Made by a program: the position numbers and the translations under genes. Shown one piece after another: positions 19,691-60,605 of a stretch of DNA of 64,000 nt (positions are counted from its first letter, which is position 1; every line of letters starts with the position of its first letter). The notes below the pieces were generated by a model. The model was not told the origin of the DNA and did not search any database. It saw nothing but the letters and a program-made list of their open reading frames with translations. The DNA is from a bacterium (GTDB taxonomy: Bacteria; Bacillota; Clostridia; Lachnospirales; Lachnospiraceae): contig JAMPFT010000001.1 of the NCBI GenBank assembly GCA_023664305.1, forward strand, positions 104,400 to 168,399. The letters are read 5' to 3'.

Positions 19691-20852
19691 AATAGAGCTT
19701 TTCCTCCTTAAAGATCTTCTGCATGATGCGCAGCTCCCGGACGGAAATATCGCAGCGGTCAAAGGTTCTGTCCTTTTCCAGCTTTCCGAACAGCGCGTCT
19801 ATCACCCTGTCGTAATCGATCTGCCCCTGCCCGCTTCTCTCCGTCATAAAGGTCACGGAATTCATCACGGTATCGGCGCAGAGCAGAACCGCCGTCTCTT
19901 TTTTCCGGATCCCCCGGGACCTGTTCCGATAATCGGAAAGGATTTCCGGAACCGCAGGCGGCAGTTTCCTCCCCTTCACGCTCTCCGCCAGTTCTTCTCC
20001 CAGATGGTGGTAATATCCCACACATTTCAGCGCGTCCGCGTCCAGTCCCAACTGCCTGCCGATACGCTCGCAGAAATAGGAGGTATGGACGCAGTGCATA
20101 TATTCCTTCCGGTCCCTTTCCCGCAGGGCCGTCAACACGGGGTTTTCCGTGTCGTTGATATCCAGATACCTGTCCCGGAAAGGATATGCCACTTTGGAGA
20201 AAAACAGCTTCAGACAGCCCACCAGCAGGATGCTGCTGACCACCATATTCGCCGCCGGGATCACAAACATTTCAAAATCGGGCCGCGCGTTGGCAGGCAG
20301 GACAAGATTTGCCGTCTCACACACCAAAAGACACAGCATCGACAGAAAAAGCGGCATACCGATCTTAAACTCTCCTCCCAGGTGCCGGAACAGAGTCACC
20401 GCAAAAATACCGCTGACAAAATAAATTGCAAAGCCCTCCACGCCGCTTCCGCTGAGCATGACGGCGATTAACAGCAGGGAGGAGGCCGTTATCGTCCCTG
20501 TGCCGGAGCTTCCAAAAAGCGTCAGCATCACATAGATCAGCAGAAACGGCCAGCCTCCCACCGGCAGGAAGCCGCACGCAAAGGCGATCCCAAGTCCCAG
20601 GACCGCACAGAACAGAAATCTCCCGATATGCTCCCCGTTATCATAATCAAGGCAGTCGTACAGATATTCCCTGCGCAGATGAAACATACAACAGGCAAGC
20701 AAAAGAACCGTCATGACGCAGTTCCCCAACAGCCTGTCCTGCGCCTGATGCTTAAGGCTCCCAAGCAGCCACATTCCCACCGCTCCCGCTATGATAATCC
20801 CCGTTTCGGCAAGGAAATATTTCCAGCCGCTTTTTCTTTTATCTTCTCCCAT
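19674..20852 (-). CDS. PgpH-like membrane HD-domain protein with degenerate active site
   Basis: By position (phoH-pgpH-ybeY) and fold this corresponds to PgpH, the c-di-AMP phosphodiesterase. The product has 392 residues with about seven or eight membrane segments in the first 215 and an HD-like domain after residue 240. The extracellular 7TMR-HDED domain of PgpH is absent. The expected His-Asp pair reads YYHHLGE (about residue 280) instead of HD, and the later His-His motif is not seen, while flanking motifs (LCADTV, KDRTFDRCDIS) fit PgpH. Hydrolase activity is therefore doubtful. It overlaps both neighbours. Confidence 0.8.
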   Translation of the reverse strand: MGEDKRKSGWKYFLAETGIIIAGAVGMWLLGSLKHQAQDRLLGNCVMTVLLLACCMFHLRREYLYDCLDYDNGEHIGRFLFCAVLGLGIAFACGFLPVGGWPFLLIYVMLTLFGSSGTGTITASSLLLIAVMLSGSGVEGFAIYFVSGIFAVTLFRHLGGEFKIGMPLFLSMLCLLVCETANLVLPANARPDFEMFVIPAANMVVSSILLVGCLKLFFSKVAYPFRDRYLDINDTENPVLTALRERDRKEYMHCVHTSYFCERIGRQLGLDADALKCVGYYHHLGEELAESVKGRKLPPAVPEILSDYRNRSRGIRKKETAVLLCADTVMNSVTFMTERSGQGQIDYDRVIDALFGKLEKDRTFDRCDISVRELRIMQKIFKEEKLYYDFLR

Positions 20853-21834
20853 GTCTGTCTCTGCTTCTGCTCTTCTCCTTCGCCTCGTAATCGTCGTATG
20901 CCTTCACGATCTTCTGTACAAGAGGATGTCTTACCACATCCTTGCTGGTCAGATTACAAAACGCAATATCGTCGATCTTTCCCAAAACCCTCGCCGCCAC
21001 ATCCAGCCCCGATTTTGCGCCGGGAGCAAGATCCTTCTGGGAGCCGTCCCCCGTGACCACCACCTTTGAGCCGAAGCCGATACGGGTCAGAAACATTTTC
21101 ATCTGTGCCGGCGTGGTATTCTGCGCCTCGTCCAGAATGATATAGGCGTTATCCAGAGTGCGTCCCCTCATGTAAGCTAAGGGCGCTACCTCGATGAGTC
21201 CTTTTTCCATATTTTTGGCGAAGCTTTCCGCTCCCATAATCTGGTAGAGCGCGTCATAAAGCGGCCTTAAATACGGATCCACCTTGCTCTGCAGATCTCC
21301 CGGCAGAAAGCCCAGCTTCTCTCCCGCCTCTATGGCCGGTCTGGTCAAAATGATCCTGCTTACCTCGTCGTTTTTAAAGGCTGTGATTGCCATCGCCATC
21401 GCCAGATAAGTCTTTCCCGTACCCGCAGGCCCCAGTCCGAACACGATCATATTCTTTCTGATGGCGTCCACATAGGCCTTTTGCCCCAGCGTCTTCGGCT
21501 TGATCGGTTTTCCGTTTACCGTGTGACAGATACAGTCCGTGTCAATTTCCGTGATAACCTTTTCCTGTTCTTCCATTCCCATTGTAATCGCGTAATCTAC
21601 GCTTTGCTCCTCTATTTCGTTTCCTCTTCCGGAGATGATGGTAAGCTGCGTAAGCACCGAAGCCGCCTTCCGCACCATGTCCTCGCTTCCGTAGATCGTC
21701 ACGGCGCCGTTTCGGTCTACCACGGAAACGCCGAAATCGTGCTCCAGCTTTTTTATATAGGCGTCCTGCATCCCGAAAATCTTCCGCATATGCTCCGCGG
21801 GAAGCTCAAGCTTCATTGAATAGTCATTTTCCAT
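20839..21834 (-). CDS. phoH: PhoH family ATPase
   Basis: Cytoplasmic P-loop ATPase of the PhoH/PhoL family, linked to RNA metabolism; 331 residues. An N-terminal KH-like region precedes Walker A GPAGTGKTYLAMA near residue 140 and Walker B ILDEAQNTTPAQMK near residue 240; the VVTGDGSQ sensor is present. The start at 21834 is fixed by the GGAAAGG located 7-8 bases upstream in the last unit of a 20-bp repeat. Translation is probably coupled to yqfD through the mini-ORF array. Its end overlaps the PgpH-like start by 14 bases. Confidence 0.93.
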   Translation of the reverse strand: MENDYSMKLELPAEHMRKIFGMQDAYIKKLEHDFGVSVVDRNGAVTIYGSEDMVRKAASVLTQLTIISGRGNEIEEQSVDYAITMGMEEQEKVITEIDTDCICHTVNGKPIKPKTLGQKAYVDAIRKNMIVFGLGPAGTGKTYLAMAMAITAFKNDEVSRIILTRPAIEAGEKLGFLPGDLQSKVDPYLRPLYDALYQIMGAESFAKNMEKGLIEVAPLAYMRGRTLDNAYIILDEAQNTTPAQMKMFLTRIGFGSKVVVTGDGSQKDLAPGAKSGLDVAARVLGKIDDIAFCNLTSKDVVRHPLVQKIVKAYDDYEAKEKSRSRDRHGRR

Positions 21835-21953
21835 GATCCGCCTTTCCGATCATTGATCCGCCTTTCCGATCATTGATCCGCCTTTCCGATCATTGATCCG
21901 CCTTTCCGATCATTGATCCGCCTTTCCGATCATTGATCTGTCTTTCCGATCAT
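21824..21953 (-). other. Chain of six overlapping mini-ORFs between yqfD and phoH
   Basis: ATG codons on the minus strand lie at 21953, 21933, 21913, 21893, 21873 and 21853. The first encodes MIGKTDQ, the next four MIGKADQ, and the last MIGKADHGK. Each stop (TGA) overlaps the next ATG in ATGA, and the yqfD stop overlaps the first ATG the same way. Each unit carries its own AAAGG seven bases before the next ATG. The last mini-ORF overlaps the phoH start by 11 bases. Whether they are translated is not known. Confidence 0.7.
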
Positions 21954-21973
21954 TGATCTGTCTCTCCGATCAC
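21835..21973 (-). repeat. 20-bp tandem repeat at the yqfD-phoH junction
   Basis: About seven copies of a 20-bp unit, on the plus strand CCGCCTTTCCGATCATTGAT; five are identical and those nearest yqfD carry one to three changes. The most divergent unit is the yqfD C-terminal coding sequence (VIGETDQ and stop), so the array appears to have grown from the end of yqfD. Confidence 0.95.
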
Positions 21974-23164
21974 CGTTCTTTCCGTGGCGGTACTTTTCCC
22001 TGTCTGCTCCCGGACGGTAAACTCGCCGGAAATGATCCACAAACCGCCATTTGTATCTATTTTAACATCTTTTTCAATAATTTGTACCCCTTTTTCCTCT
22101 AAACTTGCAAGAAAAGCCATTAATTTTTCATGAAGCTTTTCTTCCGCCTCCGCAAGAGTATACTCATACTCTACATTTTGGTATTCACGGTATGTATATT
22201 CGCCGCTGTAGACCGGTATGGAGAGCTTTTCGAAAAGGGCGAAGCGGCTTTCCCTGATTACGCTGTCATACACGAGAAAGGGCCTTTCCTGCGGCATTTT
22301 CCATTCCCTGTTCCCGAACCGCAGATAATATCTCTTCTTTTCCCTGCCCGTATATTCCTTCTCAATATGATCAAAGGGCAGCGTCGCCGAAAAGCTGAGC
22401 GTATGCTCCAGCACGATATCTGCGTCCGCGTCTACATACAGGTACTCCCTCACCGTCGTATCCTCGTTATAGACGGGAACCTTCCCTTCCACCAGCACGC
22501 TTCCCTCCTCCACGGTATCTCCCGCCGCCACCTTCGGCACGCCCCTGCGCACGATGATCGAAACCACTGTGCCCGCATACTCAGAGACCAGATCCCGTCC
22601 CGTCTCGGTCTTTTCCTCCGGCTGCACGGACACATCGTTCTCCTTGACATCGATTTTCAGCCGAGTACCCTCCAGCTTTGCGGAGGCCCATGTGATTTCG
22701 GGAAACTGCCTGCGGATCTCCTTCTCCAGAGACTCGATATCCACATCCTCCTTGCGAATGCCGATAACCACCTGTTGCTCCTTGAGAAACGACAGAAAAA
22801 TGTCCTCCGTGATCTGATAATTTCCGGTAAGCTCGATGTCCCAGACAAAGAGGGACGACCAAAACCAGAAGGCCACCGTAAACACCAGGCCTCCCACAAA
22901 CATTTTCCGTCTCAACAGCTTGGGCAGAAAAAAGGGCAGCCCGTATCGCTCCAATACGGCCACCCTTGTACCTGTTTTCCTGACGATGGGACGAAGCGCC
23001 CAAAAGCCCTTAAGGTTGATATCCATGTAATAGACGTCTCCCTCCCGGACAATGTTGGAGAGGAGGATTCCCTTATTGCTGCAAAGATTCATAAAACGTT
23101 CCGGAGAAAATCCGCTGACGCGGATGCGCAGATACCCCCTAAGATACCTCAAAAGTCCGATCAT
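21950..23164 (-). CDS. yqfD: Sporulation protein YqfD
   Basis: Sporulation protein of 404 residues with an N-terminal cytoplasmic part, a membrane segment near residue 85 (FVGGLVFTVAFWFWSSLFVW) and a long extracytoplasmic part with POTRA-like beginnings, as in YqfD, whose mutants in Bacillus block sporulation. Start at 23164 (MIGLLRYL) is taken because GGGGTG precedes it; a GTG at 23179 in the same frame is possible. The C-terminal residues VIGETDQ and the stop form the first unit of the 20-bp repeat array. Upstream of it is yqfC, 50 bases away. Confidence 0.9.
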   Translation of the reverse strand: MIGLLRYLRGYLRIRVSGFSPERFMNLCSNKGILLSNIVREGDVYYMDINLKGFWALRPIVRKTGTRVAVLERYGLPFFLPKLLRRKMFVGGLVFTVAFWFWSSLFVWDIELTGNYQITEDIFLSFLKEQQVVIGIRKEDVDIESLEKEIRRQFPEITWASAKLEGTRLKIDVKENDVSVQPEEKTETGRDLVSEYAGTVVSIIVRRGVPKVAAGDTVEEGSVLVEGKVPVYNEDTTVREYLYVDADADIVLEHTLSFSATLPFDHIEKEYTGREKKRYYLRFGNREWKMPQERPFLVYDSVIRESRFALFEKLSIPVYSGEYTYREYQNVEYEYTLAEAEEKLHEKLMAFLASLEEKGVQIIEKDVKIDTNGGLWIISGEFTVREQTGKSTATERTVIGETDQ

Positions 23165-23214
23165 GACTACACACCCCACTCACTTTTTAAAAGAGCCGTC
23201 CGAAGACACCTGTA

Positions 23215-24844: not shown

Positions 24845-24935
24845 CGCCGTTTCCCTCCGTTGATTTCGCCCGCCTGTGTCTCTCTCCTGTCAGTTTCCCT
24901 TATTCCGTTCCCTTTTCTTTCTCAGTTCTGTTTTC

Positions 24936-25138
24936 CTACTCAATTCTGCTTTCCTTATCCGTTCTGTTTTCCTTCTCCGTTCTGCTTTCCTTATCCATTC
25001 TGCTTTCCTTATCCGTTCTGTTTTCCTTCTCCGTTACGCTTTCCTTCTCCGTTCTGTTTTCCTTCTCTGTTACGCTTTCCTTCTCCGTTCTGCTTTCCTT
25101 CTCCGTTACGCTTTCCTTCTCCGTTACGCTTTCCCGGT
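24936..25138 (-). repeat. 18-bp tandem repeat encoding the PL11 tail
   Basis: About eleven 18-bp units encode six-residue repeats of the type ESVTEK, ESRTEK, ENRTDK. The period is a multiple of three, so unit number can change without frameshift. The tail is highly charged and probably disordered. Confidence 0.9.
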
Positions 25139-27596
25139 TCTCTTCCTGCATACCGGTCAGATAGGCCTGTGCAAAATCCATATCGCCCGCATAGTAAAAC
25201 CGGGTGTAGCAGGGCTGATTATAGCAGTTGTTCTGCCATGCGACGCCCGTGCGGTACATGACGTCGTGCATCAGGGTGAACAGCTTGTGCCCGGTCAACT
25301 CCGTGTTTGTGTAAATGCGGATCGCCTCATTGTCCTGTCTGCGCAGAATGATCTCTTCCCGGAAATCTCCCAGCACGTCGGCGATCAGGCACGGATTCCC
25401 TTTCGTGCCGTTGTTCACTGCCGTCCCCTGCGGGTCCAGCATGACGCCGTGGGTTTCGTCCCGGATCACGCCCCGCTTCTCCTCCCGCAGATAATCCGCC
25501 CCGTCCACAATCTGGGTGGAAAGATCCGCCGCCCAGCGGACGGACGCGTTGGTTCCGGGCGCTTTCCCGGGCAACAGCCTTCCCTTACAGTCATACATCT
25601 TATCCGTCCAGACCTGCAGCCCGCGGCTTGCCGGAGCCACGTCGCCGACCATGCAGCGCCCCAGATCCCTGTCCGCCGCTTCCCCGAACAGCACCTCCCC
25701 CGTTTCCGCGTCCCGCAGGGCCCAGCCGTAAGGCGCTTCCGACGCGCCCTCAAACACGTTGAAAATCTGATAACCCGGCCTGTCCGGGTCGATCACCGCC
25801 GTATGCATGGAATCTCCGTGCCCCAGCTTTGCCTCCCTCCCGTCCGGCATCCGTCCGTAGGAGGAATACAGCACGGAGCCGTCGTGGTCGATCACCGCCG
25901 CCCCGTAGACGATCTCCTGACAGCCGTCCCCGTCCACATCCGCCGCGGCCAGGGAATGATTTCCCTGCCCCGCAAGAATCCCGTAGACCGGATCCGTTCC
26001 CTTTCCCCCGTGAGGAGTATCGCGGAAAGGATTTTTCATGGGTACAAAGCCGCTGTCGATATCAAATTTCAGACGGTGCCTGCCCGTGAAGAAATCGTAG
26101 GCGGCCACCGTCGTCCTGGTATAATATCCCCTGCAGACGATCAGATAAGGCCGCTCCCCGTCCAGATATACCACGCCGGACAAAAATCTGTCCGACCGGT
26201 TGCAGGGCTCAATCCGGGCCATTGCATAATCCCCCCAGCGCAGGCCGTCGTCCACTCTGGGGTGTGGAAAGGGAATCGTCTCCAGCTCCCTTCCGTCCCC
26301 GCCGAACATGGTCAGATACTCCGGCCCCTCGTAAATAAAGCCCTCAAATTCCCGCAGTCTGTTGGCCGCGCTCCTGAAAGGCGCATACACATCCAGAAAA
26401 TAATCCGCCAGCGCCTCGGCGTCCCCGCGGGAAAGCGGGTAAGAATATCTGCGCTCTGTCCCAAAGCAGGTCTCCAGATCCGCCGGCCACTGTCCGCTTC
26501 TCACCTCTTCCAGTGTGTGCCACCGTAAGAACAGCTCCACAAGATGCCGGTAATAGTCTTCGGCGCTGCAGACATAATTATCCTCATGGCGGACGCCTGC
26601 CTCCGCGTCCGCCGCCGGCAGCGTCACATATCGGCGGCTTTCCACGCTCCCGTCCTCCCCGAACACCGTCATACAGGTGCCCGGTGCCGTCTTCACCGAC
26701 ATCTCCGCCCGGCCGTCCCCGTCGAAATCATAGACCATAAACTGGGTATAATGGGCTCCCGCGCGGATGTTGACACCCAGATCCAGCCGCCAGAGCAGCC
26801 GTCCGTCCAGCCTGTAGCAGTCGATCAGGCACTTTCCCGTGTACCCGCGGATTGACACGTCGTGGGAATTATCCGGATCCCACTTGACGATAAACTCATA
26901 CTCTCCGTCCCCGTCCACATCGCCCACGCTCATATCGTTGACGGTATACTCGTACCGCTCTCCCGCAGGAGTTACGCCGCCCTCCGGCTTTTGCAAAAGA
27001 ATCTCCAGATAGCTGCCGGCCTTCTGTGCCTTTCGGTCAGACCCGGGCTCCGGCCACAGCCCCACCGGTGCGCAGCGTTCCCCCTCCGCACCCTCTGCCA
27101 CCGGGGCCACCGCGTATACGTCGCCCGGCTTTCCCTGCGGATCCAGAAAATTGGTGCTGTCCGATACAAACGCAATTTTTCTGCCGTTGCGGTAAACGTT
27201 AAAATCCGTTCCCGTCAGTCCCGTCCGGCTATACCCCGTAACCTCCCGGCGAAACAGCCTCCAGCTCAAAAACACGCCTTCCTCTGCCCGCACCGCAATC
27301 AGTCCCCTGTTCAACCGTTCCAGCTGTTCCCGGAAAACCTTTTTTACCGGCGTTTTCAGCAGGGCGGATTCCTCCGCCTTCTCTCCGGCTTTCCAGGCCT
27401 CTACCCTCAGATAATGCGGGATATGAGTGGCTTTGAAAAGGCAAAACTCCGTCTCTTCGGTGACCGCCACGCACCGATATTCCATGGAAGGAGTATACCG
27501 GTCGGACCAGTATACCCTGTACTCCTCCGCCCCTTCCACCGACTCCCAGACAAGCTCGATTTTGTCATCATAAAGTTCTTTTACCGCAAGATACAT
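24936..27596 (-). CDS. Rhamnogalacturonan lyase, PL11 family, with repetitive C-terminal tail
   Basis: Pectin-degrading enzyme cleaving the rhamnose-galacturonic acid backbone. The 886-residue product has an N-terminal fibronectin-like region (to about 90), then the PL11 beta-propeller with repeated calcium-type sites such as DVDGDGEYEFIVKWDPDN, DFDGDGRAEM and DVDGDGCQE. No signal peptide is seen, which suggests that it acts on oligosaccharides inside the cell. The last 65 residues are an 18-bp repeat array (ESVTEK-type units). GGAGAG precedes the ATG. No transporter or other pectin gene is adjacent. Confidence 0.9.
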   Translation of the reverse strand: MYLAVKELYDDKIELVWESVEGAEEYRVYWSDRYTPSMEYRCVAVTEETEFCLFKATHIPHYLRVEAWKAGEKAEESALLKTPVKKVFREQLERLNRGLIAVRAEEGVFLSWRLFRREVTGYSRTGLTGTDFNVYRNGRKIAFVSDSTNFLDPQGKPGDVYAVAPVAEGAEGERCAPVGLWPEPGSDRKAQKAGSYLEILLQKPEGGVTPAGERYEYTVNDMSVGDVDGDGEYEFIVKWDPDNSHDVSIRGYTGKCLIDCYRLDGRLLWRLDLGVNIRAGAHYTQFMVYDFDGDGRAEMSVKTAPGTCMTVFGEDGSVESRRYVTLPAADAEAGVRHEDNYVCSAEDYYRHLVELFLRWHTLEEVRSGQWPADLETCFGTERRYSYPLSRGDAEALADYFLDVYAPFRSAANRLREFEGFIYEGPEYLTMFGGDGRELETIPFPHPRVDDGLRWGDYAMARIEPCNRSDRFLSGVVYLDGERPYLIVCRGYYTRTTVAAYDFFTGRHRLKFDIDSGFVPMKNPFRDTPHGGKGTDPVYGILAGQGNHSLAAADVDGDGCQEIVYGAAVIDHDGSVLYSSYGRMPDGREAKLGHGDSMHTAVIDPDRPGYQIFNVFEGASEAPYGWALRDAETGEVLFGEAADRDLGRCMVGDVAPASRGLQVWTDKMYDCKGRLLPGKAPGTNASVRWAADLSTQIVDGADYLREEKRGVIRDETHGVMLDPQGTAVNNGTKGNPCLIADVLGDFREEIILRRQDNEAIRIYTNTELTGHKLFTLMHDVMYRTGVAWQNNCYNQPCYTRFYYAGDMDFAQAYLTGMQEENRESVTEKESVTEKESRTEKESVTEKENRTEKESVTEKENRTDKESRMDKESRTEKENRTDKESRIE

Positions 27597-47224: not shown

Positions 47225-47450
47225 AGATCCCCGGCTATCCCCTTCGCCGCAGCCTTCCCGGCCCCTCATAGCAGGCTATGGGCTCCGGAGGTTACTTGCT
47301 GCTCAAGTATTCGTCGATCCCTTTCGCCGCAGCCTTCCCGGCCCCTCATAGCAGGCTATAGGCTCCGGGGTTACTTGCTGCTTAAGTATTCGTCGATTCC
47401 TTTCGCTGCCGCCTTCCCTGCGCCTCATAGCAGGCTATGGGCTCCGGGGA
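47225..47450 (-). repeat. 80-bp tandem duplications of the nfnB 3' end
   Basis: TTACTTGCTGCT recurs at 47292, 47371 and 47451 (the last is the real nfnB stop). Each downstream copy repeats the nfnB tail coding KAAAKGIDEYLSSK and the stop, joined by a 26-base spacer with hairpin CATAGC/GCTATG. A further partial copy starts near 47230. About two and a half extra copies, drifted by several bases. Confidence 0.9.
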
Positions 47451-48836
47451 TTACTTGCTGCTCAAGTATTCGTCAATCCCTTTTGCTGCCGCCTTCCCTG
47501 CGCCCATAGCCAGGATTACCGTGGCCGCGCCGGTGACCGCGTCTCCCCCGGCGTAAACGCCCTCCTTGCTGGTCTTTCCGTCCTCTTCCCGGGCAACGAT
47601 GCATTTCCACTTGTTGGTCTCCAGTCCCTCGGTTGTAGAAGAGATCAGAGGGTTGGGCGACGTTCCCAGAGCCATGATTACCGTATCCAGCTCCATGGTA
47701 AACTCCGAGCCGGGAACTTCCACCGGTCTGCGACGTCCCGAGGCGTCAGGCTCCCCAAGCTCCATCCGGATACATTTCATACCGGTAACCCAGCCCTTTT
47801 CGTCGGAAAGGATTTCTGTCGGGTTGGTGAGAAGGTCAAAAATGATACCTTCCTCCTTCGCGTGGTGAACCTCCTCCACTCTCGCGGGAAGCTCCTCCTC
47901 GCTTCTCCTGTATACGATATGAACCTCCGCGCCAAGCCGCAGCGCCGTTCTCGCCGCGTCCATGGCCACGTTCCCGCCGCCTACCACGGCCACCTTGCGG
48001 CTCTTCATGATCGGCGTGTTGGAATTTTCGTCGAAGGCCTTCATCAGGTTGCTTCTGGTCAGATATTCGTTGGCGGAGAACACGCCGTTGGCATTTTCTC
48101 CCGGAATCCCCATGAATTTGGGCAGTCCCGCACCGGAGCCGATAAACACGGCGTCGAAGCCTTCCTCGCCGATCAGCTCGTCGATTGTGACGGATTTCCC
48201 TACGACAACGTTGGTCTCAATCTTTACGCCCAGCGCTTTGACATTCTCGATCTCCTCCGCCACCACAGCCTTTTTGGGAAGACGAAATTCCGGAATGCCG
48301 TACACAAGCACTCCTCCGGGCTCATGCAAAGCCTCAAAGATCGTCACCTCATATCCCTTCTTTGCCAGATCCCCCGCACAGGTAAGTCCCGCGGGGCCGG
48401 AGCCGATCACTGCCACCTTCTTTCCGTTCTTTTCCGCGCACCCTTCCGGCTTGACGCCGTTCTCTCTGGCCCAATCCGCCACAAAACGCTCCAGCTTGCC
48501 GATGGAAATCGGATCGCCCTTGATGCCCCGGATACATTTCCCCTCACACTGGCTCTCCTGGGGACATACCCGTCCGCAGACAGCCGGAAGAGCGCTGGAC
48601 TTGCTGATAATCTGGTACGCCTCCTCAATATTCCCTTCCTTTACCTGTGCGATAAAAGCAGGAATATCGATGGCCACGGGACATCCCTTGATACACTGGG
48701 CGTTTTTACAGTTGATGCATCTAACCGCTTCGGCCTGTGCCTCCTCCTGATTATATCCCAAACATACTTCCTCAAAATTGACAGCCCGCTCCTTCGCGTC
48801 CTGCTCCCTCACGGGAATTTTCGTCAAAACATCCAT
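47451..48836 (-). CDS. nfnB: NADH-dependent ferredoxin:NADP+ oxidoreductase subunit B (glutamate synthase small-subunit family)
   Basis: FAD and [4Fe-4S] flavoprotein of 461 residues. Cysteine clusters CINCKNAQCIKGCP and CGRVCPQESQCEGKC bind clusters; GSGPAGLTCAGDLAKKG and GGGNVAMDAARTALRLG are FAD and NADPH sites. It could be named GltA, but an NfnA-type gene (49509-50387) lies upstream, so it most likely forms the electron-bifurcating NfnAB complex coupling NADH, ferredoxin and NADP. A GNAT gene separates the two. Its 3' end is duplicated downstream. Confidence 0.85.
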   Translation of the reverse strand: MDVLTKIPVREQDAKERAVNFEEVCLGYNQEEAQAEAVRCINCKNAQCIKGCPVAIDIPAFIAQVKEGNIEEAYQIISKSSALPAVCGRVCPQESQCEGKCIRGIKGDPISIGKLERFVADWARENGVKPEGCAEKNGKKVAVIGSGPAGLTCAGDLAKKGYEVTIFEALHEPGGVLVYGIPEFRLPKKAVVAEEIENVKALGVKIETNVVVGKSVTIDELIGEEGFDAVFIGSGAGLPKFMGIPGENANGVFSANEYLTRSNLMKAFDENSNTPIMKSRKVAVVGGGNVAMDAARTALRLGAEVHIVYRRSEEELPARVEEVHHAKEEGIIFDLLTNPTEILSDEKGWVTGMKCIRMELGEPDASGRRRPVEVPGSEFTMELDTVIMALGTSPNPLISSTTEGLETNKWKCIVAREEDGKTSKEGVYAGGDAVTGAATVILAMGAGKAAAKGIDEYLSSK

Positions 48837-59390: not shown

Positions 59391-60347
59391 CTATTTCCCC
59401 TCGGCGGTCAGAACCGTCTCGATATTATAACGCGGTCTCTGCTTTACTTCCGTATATATTTTCCCGATATACTGCCCCACAATGCCGATTGCCATAAGCT
59501 GCAGCCCTCCCAGAAACCAGATTGACAGGATCAGAGAGGTCCAGCCCGGCACCACATGCCCGGTGCAGTAAGAAATCAGCGCGTAAATCAACGCCGCAAA
59601 GGACGCCAGAATGATGAACAGCCCGATACCCAGGATGAAGCTGATCGGCTTGACGCTGAAGGAGGAAATCCCGTCAAATGCCAGCGCCAGCATTTTCTTC
59701 AGGGGATATTTCGATTCTCCCGCCACCCGCTCCTTCCTGTCATAATAAACGCTGTCGGTCCGATATCCCACCAGAGGAATCAGGCCTCTCAGGAACAGAT
59801 TCGTCTCCCTGTATTTTGAAAATTCCTCCACCGCCCGTTTTGACATCAGACGGAAATCCGCATGGTTATAAACCGTTTTCACTCCCATCAGCCCCATCAG
59901 CCTGTAAAAGGCCTGCGCCGTCGTCCGCTTGAAAAAGCTGTCTGTCTTCCGTTCTTTTCTGACTCCGTAGACAATGTCGCAGCCCGCATGATACTTATCG
60001 ATCATCTCTTCGATAACGGAGATGTCGTCCTGCAGATCCGCGTCGATGGATACCGTCACGTCGCACATATCCTTCGCCGTAATCAGACCGGCCGTCAGCG
60101 CGAACTGATGTCCCACATTTGCCGCAAGCTTCACACCCAGAACCTGCGCAGGATAACCGGTGTGTTCCTCGCAGATCAGCTCCCAGGTTCTGTCCCTGCT
60201 CCCGTCATTCACAAAAAGGATAAAGCTGTCTTCCGAAATCTTACCCTTGGCGGCCAGATCGTCCAATACTCCCCGCAGCGCCTCCGAGGCAATCTTCAAC
60301 ACTTCCTCCTCGTTATAACAGGGCACAATAATCGCCAGTTTATCCAT
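59391..60347 (-). CDS. Glycosyltransferase family 2 (GtrB/DPM1-like) with two membrane segments
   Basis: Transfers a sugar from a nucleotide to undecaprenyl phosphate; 318 residues. The GT2 domain has VPCYNEEEVL, FVNDGSRDRTW and the metal-binding DADLQDD. Two C-terminal membrane segments (about 230-255 and 265-290) anchor it, as in GtrB and DPM1. The ATG at 60347 has GAGGAGGAG upstream. With the adjacent membrane protein it forms a typical lipid-carrier glycosylation pair. Confidence 0.92.
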   Translation of the reverse strand: MDKLAIIVPCYNEEEVLKIASEALRGVLDDLAAKGKISEDSFILFVNDGSRDRTWELICEEHTGYPAQVLGVKLAANVGHQFALTAGLITAKDMCDVTVSIDADLQDDISVIEEMIDKYHAGCDIVYGVRKERKTDSFFKRTTAQAFYRLMGLMGVKTVYNHADFRLMSKRAVEEFSKYRETNLFLRGLIPLVGYRTDSVYYDRKERVAGESKYPLKKMLALAFDGISSFSVKPISFILGIGLFIILASFAALIYALISYCTGHVVPGWTSLILSIWFLGGLQLMAIGIVGQYIGKIYTEVKQRPRYNIETVLTAEGK

Positions 60348-60367
60348 ACTGCTCCTCCTCAAATCTT

Positions 60368-60605
60368 CTCCTGATGCCGCGTCTCACCGGATTGTTCACG
60401 CGGGCTGCCTAAAACTCTTCATTTCCGCTCCTGACGCCGCGTCTCATCGTATTGTTCCCGCAGGCTGTCGAAACTCCTCATCTTCGCTCCTGACGCCGCG
60501 TCTCACCGGATTGTTCCCGCAGACTGTCGAAACTCCTTATCTTCGCTCCTGACGCCGCGTCTCACCGGATTGTTCCCGCAGACTGCCTAAAATTCCCCTC
60601 TTTTC
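60368..60605 (-). repeat. 59-60-bp tandem repeat upstream of the GT2 gene
   Basis: Four copies starting at 60368, 60428, 60487 and 60546, each containing CCGCGTCTCACCGGATTGTT-like sequence. Differences are single bases. They lie in the 360-base gap between yebC and the GT2 gene; nothing else recognisable is in that gap (60606-60725 holds no gene). Confidence 0.92.

Follow-up and report, generated by a model that had tools for sequence, protein, structure and literature searches.

Among described systems, the closest to the element reported here are the mycobacterial interspersed repetitive units (MIRUs), whose insertion, apparently at start codons, couples the open reading frame (ORF) of the MIRU to the gene with a spacing of −4 nt (PMC12548453, attributing this to Supply 1997). 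In the gap between senX3 and regX3, three 77-bp MIRUs are found in one strain, and two 77-bp units together with one 53-bp unit in another (PMC4213456). More generally, termination-reinitiation at overlapping genes was tested in E. coli and Haloferax, where 13 of 14 pairs proved to be coupled (PMC6728339), and a spacing of −4 nt was the best for coupling in L. lactis (PMC12548453). Here we describe a tandem array of seven 20-bp units, forming six head-to-tail mini-ORFs, that lies between yqfD and phoH in a bacterium of the family Lachnospiraceae (assembly GCA_023664305.1, contig JAMPFT010000001.1, positions 104,400 to 168,399). This stretch of 64,000 nt is called the window throughout, and coordinates are given as positions within it. 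The reading that we favor, at a probability of roughly 70%, is that the array is a recent, locally born minisatellite whose stop/start hand-over survives changes in copy number, and that it is tolerated rather than selected.

A preliminary description of the locus, made from the sequence alone, knew of no described case of such an arrangement, a claim that cannot be kept, as MIRU ORFs coupled at −4 nt are already in print (PMC12548453). As in a MIRU, a small ORF within a repeat is linked at −4 nt, here through ATGA at six links, with the link to phoH itself being an 11-nt overlap; as at senX3-regX3, several units stand in a row in one operon gap, and the lengths of 77 and 53 bp, like 20 bp, leave a remainder of two when divided by three (2 mod 3). 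Unlike the MIRUs, an interspersed and apparently mobile family, the unit of the array is junction-derived and was found at one locus in its genome, and it measures 20 bp as opposed to 53 or 77 bp at senX3-regX3. The array is not a MIRU; it follows the same principle and differs in its single-locus, 20-bp, junction-derived unit.

With respect to other systems, the termination-reinitiation pairs of PMC6728339 have one overlap per pair, compared with a series of six mini-ORFs in the present chain. Synthetic bicistronic design leaders (PMC12548453, PMC5995908) resemble the chain in that a short leader ORF brings ribosomes to the next ORF, but they consist of one engineered leader before a target gene, whereas the chain in the window is natural, repeated and placed between two genes. 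The TAACTGA direct repeats of Beggiatoaceae (PMC4679880) are likewise repeats, suspected of post-transcriptional roles, but they are seven bases long and occur in 169 sets, with no mini-ORF chain in the available part of that paper. An open-access literature search joining translational coupling with variable-number tandem repeats or minisatellites returned nothing relevant, which is no proof of absence elsewhere.

Anatomy of the yqfD-phoH junction

The features of the junction, all on the minus strand, are as follows.

21950..23179, minus strand: yqfD, ORF of 409 aa (Pfam PF06898 YqfD, E 1.6e-104); its last codons, VIGETDQ and stop, form repeat unit 1, the most divergent unit
21834..21973, minus strand: the array, seven tandem 20-bp units from the yqfD tail to the A of the phoH ATG
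21930..21953, minus strand: mini-ORF 1, MIGKTDQ and stop, 7 codons; its ATG at 21953 shares ATGA with the yqfD stop
21910..21933, minus strand: mini-ORF 2, MIGKADQ and stop, 7 codons; ATG at 21933
21890..21913, minus strand: mini-ORF 3, MIGKADQ and stop, 7 codons; ATG at 21913
21870..21893, minus strand: mini-ORF 4, MIGKADQ and stop, 7 codons; ATG at 21893
21850..21873, minus strand: mini-ORF 5, MIGKADQ and stop, 7 codons; ATG at 21873
21824..21853, minus strand: mini-ORF 6, MIGKADHGK and stop, 9 codons; ATG at 21853; 11-nt overlap with phoH
20839..21834, minus strand: phoH, ORF of 331 aa with ATG at 21834 (Pfam PF02562 PhoH, E 1e-95)

Minisatellites are head-to-tail runs of near-identical units of about 10 to 100 bp, and the array is such a run: Tandem Repeats Finder (TRF) reports it with a score of 243 as 20 bp × 6.9 with 97% matches, units 3 to 7 being identical, unit 2 intermediate and unit 1 (the yqfD tail) diverged. 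Its stops and starts have the close spacing expected of coupled genes, with codons that overlap or lie a few nucleotides apart. The stop of yqfD (21950-21952) is part of the chain, its TGA overlapping the ATG of the first mini-ORF as ATGA, and the last mini-ORF overlaps the phoH start, both as the preliminary description had stated; this last overlap measures 11 nt. The six head-to-tail mini-ORFs of 7 to 9 codons were also read correctly (7, 7, 7, 7, 7 and 9), but the ATGA proposed for every link is present at six of them (yqfD to mini-ORF 1, then each of mini-ORFs 1 to 5 to the next) and is replaced by the longer overlap at phoH. Similarly, the AAAGG motif attributed to every mini-ORF occurs in five of the six, the first carrying AAAGA and the yqfD tail before it GGAGAG, and its spacing of 7 nt applies before the internal starts but shortens to 6 nt before phoH. 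The final A of the last array unit is the A of the phoH ATG. Computed pairing with the anti-Shine-Dalgarno sequence of the 16S tail amounts to −6.6 kcal/mol for unit 1, −3.5 for unit 2 and −7.4 for units 3 to 7.

Arithmetic and origin of the chain

The repeat is not a chance similarity, since next to its TRF score we observe seven matches to the 19-bp core of the unit (up to 3 mismatches) in the window, compared with a mean of 0.04 in shuffled sequence. Once the repeat exists, the chain follows from its period: with p = 2 mod 3, an ATGA in each unit and no intervening stop, every ATGA links in frame to the next TGA. The links are therefore not independent, and the chain is one event rather than six coincidences. 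Self-chaining of this kind occurs in 34% of composition-shuffled 20-mers of the unit when either strand counts (ATG, GTG or TTG followed by A being accepted as a start).

As 20 is 2 mod 3 and every unit carries an ATGA, a copy closes one mini-ORF while opening the following one, and the hand-over from yqfD to phoH therefore survives a change in copy number. We simulated this by collapsing the array and tandemly copying every segment of 12 to 40 bp whose end lies 0 to 12 nt upstream of the start of phoH; under our own coupling rule, a start had to lie −8 to +6 nt from the stop, and at most 14 nt could separate the last stop from the start of phoH. Segments with a length of 2 mod 3 kept the relay in 111 to 116 of 117 placements (95 to 99%) for one to six extra copies, and with five extra copies coupling always ran through at least two mini-ORFs. 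Segments divisible by three (0 mod 3) left the genes coupled by way of a longer yqfD in all placements (130/130), and those of 1 mod 3 kept the relay in 121 to 127 of 130 placements with even numbers of extra copies and in 0 to 6 of 130 with odd numbers. The 20-bp unit at this junction can vary in number without severing phoH from yqfD.

With respect to relatives, phoH was found in 51 of the 61 genomes searched, its own genome included, and the junctions of 29 of the 50 relatives were read. None of the 29 holds an array between yqfD and phoH, and when TRF was applied to the 200 nt upstream of phoH, a score of at least 50 was reached in one of 30 junctions, the one in the window. Among the 28 relatives with a long upstream ORF, it overlaps phoH in 14 and is separated from it by 2 to 146 nt in the other 14 (the phoH start being set by our own rule, and one relative with a contig end close by being excluded). 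A DNA search with the junction across 138 genomes of the genus matched two of them, its own and a second genome (G144); the stretch read in the latter contains no array, and its overlap reads ATGGACAATGA compared with ATGGAAAATGA in the window (compared by eye).

Because this closest junction has the same 11-nt overlap as the last mini-ORF, the array was probably born by duplication of the yqfD end together with the phoH ribosome-binding site. In the ancestor, yqfD would probably have overlapped phoH by about 11 nt, and the ribosome-binding site of phoH would have lain in the final codons of yqfD. Duplication of 20 bp of this tail would then have followed, with a GTG valine codon of the tail changing to the ATG that heads the added unit, and the copy best matched to the Shine-Dalgarno sequence would subsequently have been amplified, although the order of these mutations is our reconstruction. 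The internal ATG seems to derive from that GTG codon and not from the ATG of phoH, as the phoH start sits one base earlier in the unit. The last mini-ORF, with its end DHGK, may keep the ancestral end of YqfD, in which case the duplication would have given rise to the present end (TDQ).

To judge from its anatomy, every link on the way from yqfD to phoH is open to termination-reinitiation, and the genes at this place overlap in half of the 28 relatives. Ribosomes that end yqfD could probably re-initiate at mini-ORF 1 and pass on stepwise, some of them dropping off at every hop, and phoH also has its own full binding site for direct initiation. Because coupling stays unbroken, the array would most likely be nearly neutral, tolerated for leaving the two genes connected more probably than selected as a dial.

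Genomic background and competing explanations

The sampled pieces of the genome are unusually rich in tandem repeats. With a TRF score of at least 150, we observe 44 arrays in 661,956 bp of this genome (31 pieces including the window, which alone holds nine) compared with 5 in 600,000 bp of its sisters (30 pieces from nine genomes), an excess of about 8-fold between pieces that were sampled non-randomly. When ORFs are assigned by a simple longest-first rule, the arrays within ORFs mostly have periods divisible by three (19/24), and the 20 outside ORFs comprise 11 of 2 mod 3, 5 of 1 mod 3 and 4 of 0 mod 3. The 11 include the array between yqfD and phoH and one at 47237-47510 that was counted as period 80 and has a 79-base consensus. 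A preference for self-chaining among the arrays of this genome was rejected, as 6 of 17 self-chain compared with 4.6 expected from shuffled units; the 17 consist of 16 outside ORFs and one inside, omitting four outside with a period divisible by three and four inside. Loss of mutS as a cause of the repeat richness was likewise discarded, mutS1 being present above its cut-off. The repeat-rich genome pieces, the lack of an array in relatives and a chain explained by arithmetic together speak against special design.

Several observations weigh against a tolerated, nearly neutral array. It might be used, as the amplified unit is the one with the strongest computed Shine-Dalgarno pairing and yqfD and phoH are both intact ORFs. 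Its RNA is predicted to fold far more strongly than shuffled sequences, and the repeat richness is drawn from the non-random sample just described. In addition, 11 or more of 20 arrays of 2 mod 3 at a chance of one-third has P = 0.04, which may hint at selection but no more than that, as the array between yqfD and phoH and the one with the 79-base consensus are both among the 11. Furthermore, when the simulation is carried to 13 overlapping relatives with five extra copies, segments of 2 mod 3 keep the relay in just 701 of 1,521 placements (0 mod 3, 1,685/1,690; 1 mod 3, 352/1,690), so that the outcome depends on the sequence and preservation is not guaranteed everywhere.

If the array were a working dial, slippage would alter the repeat number and so set either the share of yqfD ribosomes that reach phoH, through loss per hop, or the number of landing sites, and PhoH would vary by strain or by cell. 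Start, stop and ribosome-binding site stand in order in every unit, five identical units suggest recent turnover, and the relay kept in nearly all placements with one to six extra copies means that copy number could vary with both genes left intact, all of which would suit a dial. We nevertheless regard it as unlikely, given that the junctions read in relatives hold no array, that the species is represented here by one strain, which can show no variation, and that the sampled pieces of its own genome hold many tandem arrays. To our knowledge, there is no gene-specific reason for tuning PhoH. A role for RNA structure, in which units fold TGATC against GATCA and a long hairpin of the array hides the phoH start until ribosomes arrive from yqfD, making coupling strict, draws on the predicted fold, which at −53.7 kcal/mol (z = −7.8) has a stability reached by none of 200 shuffles and which pairs U and G within the start codons. 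Strong folding is, however, inherent to palindromic repeats, and the phoH start lies within the range of the 28 relatives, both over 55 nt (−10.3 kcal/mol compared with a mean of −5.7 and a minimum of −11.1) and over 150 nt (−43.7 compared with −33.8 and −45.0). Moreover, translating ribosomes would unfold the array, and a known RNA family can be set aside, as Rfam has no match in 21000-23000 at E up to 1. We consider this explanation improbable.

Explanations that place the function in the DNA, whether as a row of operators, a promoter inside the array or clustered GATC sites, and that make the mini-ORFs a by-product, can point to 14 GATC sites in 140 bp, to TGATC-N9-GATCA in all seven units and to the report that the MIRU array of senX3-regX3 drives regX3 independently of senX3 (PMC4213456). 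Yet the array lies between two same-strand genes and covers a ribosome-binding site, and a consensus scan of 21500-22400 found no sigma-70-like site, an internal promoter being the competing source of phoH expression named in the preliminary description. The spaced palindrome also occurs outside the array, at 10 scattered places in the genome with differing spacers, and we find very little to recommend a DNA element. A dispersed repeat or mobile element is rejected too, the junction with its array having one match in its own genome and the palindrome elsewhere having other spacers. That the copy number is an artefact of assembly could be suspected from the draft state of the sequence (44 contigs), the one assembly by which the species is represented here. 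The array, however, occupies about 140 bp within an 827-kb contig and has unit variants at one end, and many further arrays occur in the sampled genome pieces, which leaves such an error close to negligible. A tolerated minisatellite of local origin remains the reading that we prefer.

Other repeats were noted along the window and in sister genomes. An array with a 59-bp unit (60368-60585) directly precedes the minus-strand gene at 59391-60362; its consensus unit self-chains via ATGA after AGGAGCGA, with at least one copy lacking the ATG. The array of about 80 bp per unit at 47237-47510 appears by eye to consist of copies of the 3′ end of the ORF at 47451-48836 (minus strand), stop codon included, and 18-bp repeats at 24914-25134 encode the Glu/Lys/Ser-rich C-terminal tail of an 886-aa ORF (24936-27596). 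One sister (G089) has arrays of about 53-bp units with chained mini-ORFs at three places (L114, L112 and L113; contigs C51, C81 and C108), and another (G117; L116, C236) has a chain of 12 mini-ORFs, mostly alternating between 3 and 15 codons; in neither sister was a chain found that links two long ORFs. A loose pattern search matched 90 of 138 genomes of the genus, the listed matches mostly resembling coding repeats or single chance matches, and a backwards control was equally frequent in several genomes, including the one studied here (4 and 4). Among 20 stretches picked through this pattern, our script found no chain between two ORFs.

Arrays at other junctions and what they imply

A scan of a GTDB-wide collection for period-20 arrays yielded 50 stretches, and two of these are clear gene junctions (L071 and L103). 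The array of Streptomyces sp. B-S-A12 (L103) takes in the end of a sensor kinase gene (HATPase_c, sCache), and a response regulator starts where the array stops. The regulator was found at E up to 1e-70 in 139 of 150 genomes of the genus, its own included, and none of the 29 relatives' junctions read has a 20-bp array. Kinase and regulator overlap at −4 nt in 20 of the 29 by script, which chose another upstream frame in the other nine. Other tandem repeats (TRF at least 50) lie within 200 nt upstream of the regulator or at its start in 10 of the 29, with periods of 9 to 36; as all these periods are divisible by three, the repeats would preserve the reading frame of the kinase tail. Toward its 3′ end, the sensor kinase gene of Streptomyces is itself prone to repeats. 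In a Pseudomonadales metagenome-assembled genome (L071), NAD(P)H-hydrate epimerase/dehydratase is followed by four mini-ORFs and then by an ORF cut by the contig end, which we take from the gene order to be tsaE; the 37 codons present gave no Pfam hit. A further stretch was flagged as a junction by script with its genes unconfirmed (L104), two read into N after the array (L088 and L090), and in three no long ORF begins where the array stops (L094, L087 and L111). Many of the 50 stretches contain 20-nt repeats that start with ATGAC and lie beside inverted repeats.

Viral scans added two stretches at period 20, five at 19, one at 17 and two at 16. On phage contigs, arrays lie between a phage gene and the next ORF in L139 (period 17) and in L134 and L137 (period 19), the upstream genes matching terminase small subunit (L139, E 3.4e-7; L134, E 0.004) and portal protein (L137, E 3.6e-81); the downstream ORFs of 75, 89 and 48 aa in L139, L134 and L137, respectively, had no PHROG match. 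L135 and L137 are the same junction between two ORFs, L132 has support for its downstream ORF alone, L136, L138 and L140 have support for neither, and L133 and L141 were viewed as sequence alone. The parallels are too few for a test of period bias. Junction arrays of this kind, in which the region around a gene start is tandemly duplicated, recur, and each of the two cases checked in relatives is seen in one lineage only.

The rule that emerges is that, where coupled genes are joined by ATGA, a repeat with a period of 2 mod 3 can grow or shrink without uncoupling them, and the two reported MIRU lengths fit it. It is doubtful that coupling-preserving minisatellites amount to a general, recurrent regulatory mutation, in which a tandemly duplicated overlap junction with a period of 2 mod 3 would found a relay that drifts freely in length and changes the expression of phoH or of other downstream genes. 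If ribosomes do run along the chain between yqfD and phoH, it would constitute a natural re-initiation series in near-identical contexts, so that the loss per step could be read directly; that loss would in turn bear on the question of 30S versus 70S ribosomes in translational coupling (PMC12548453).
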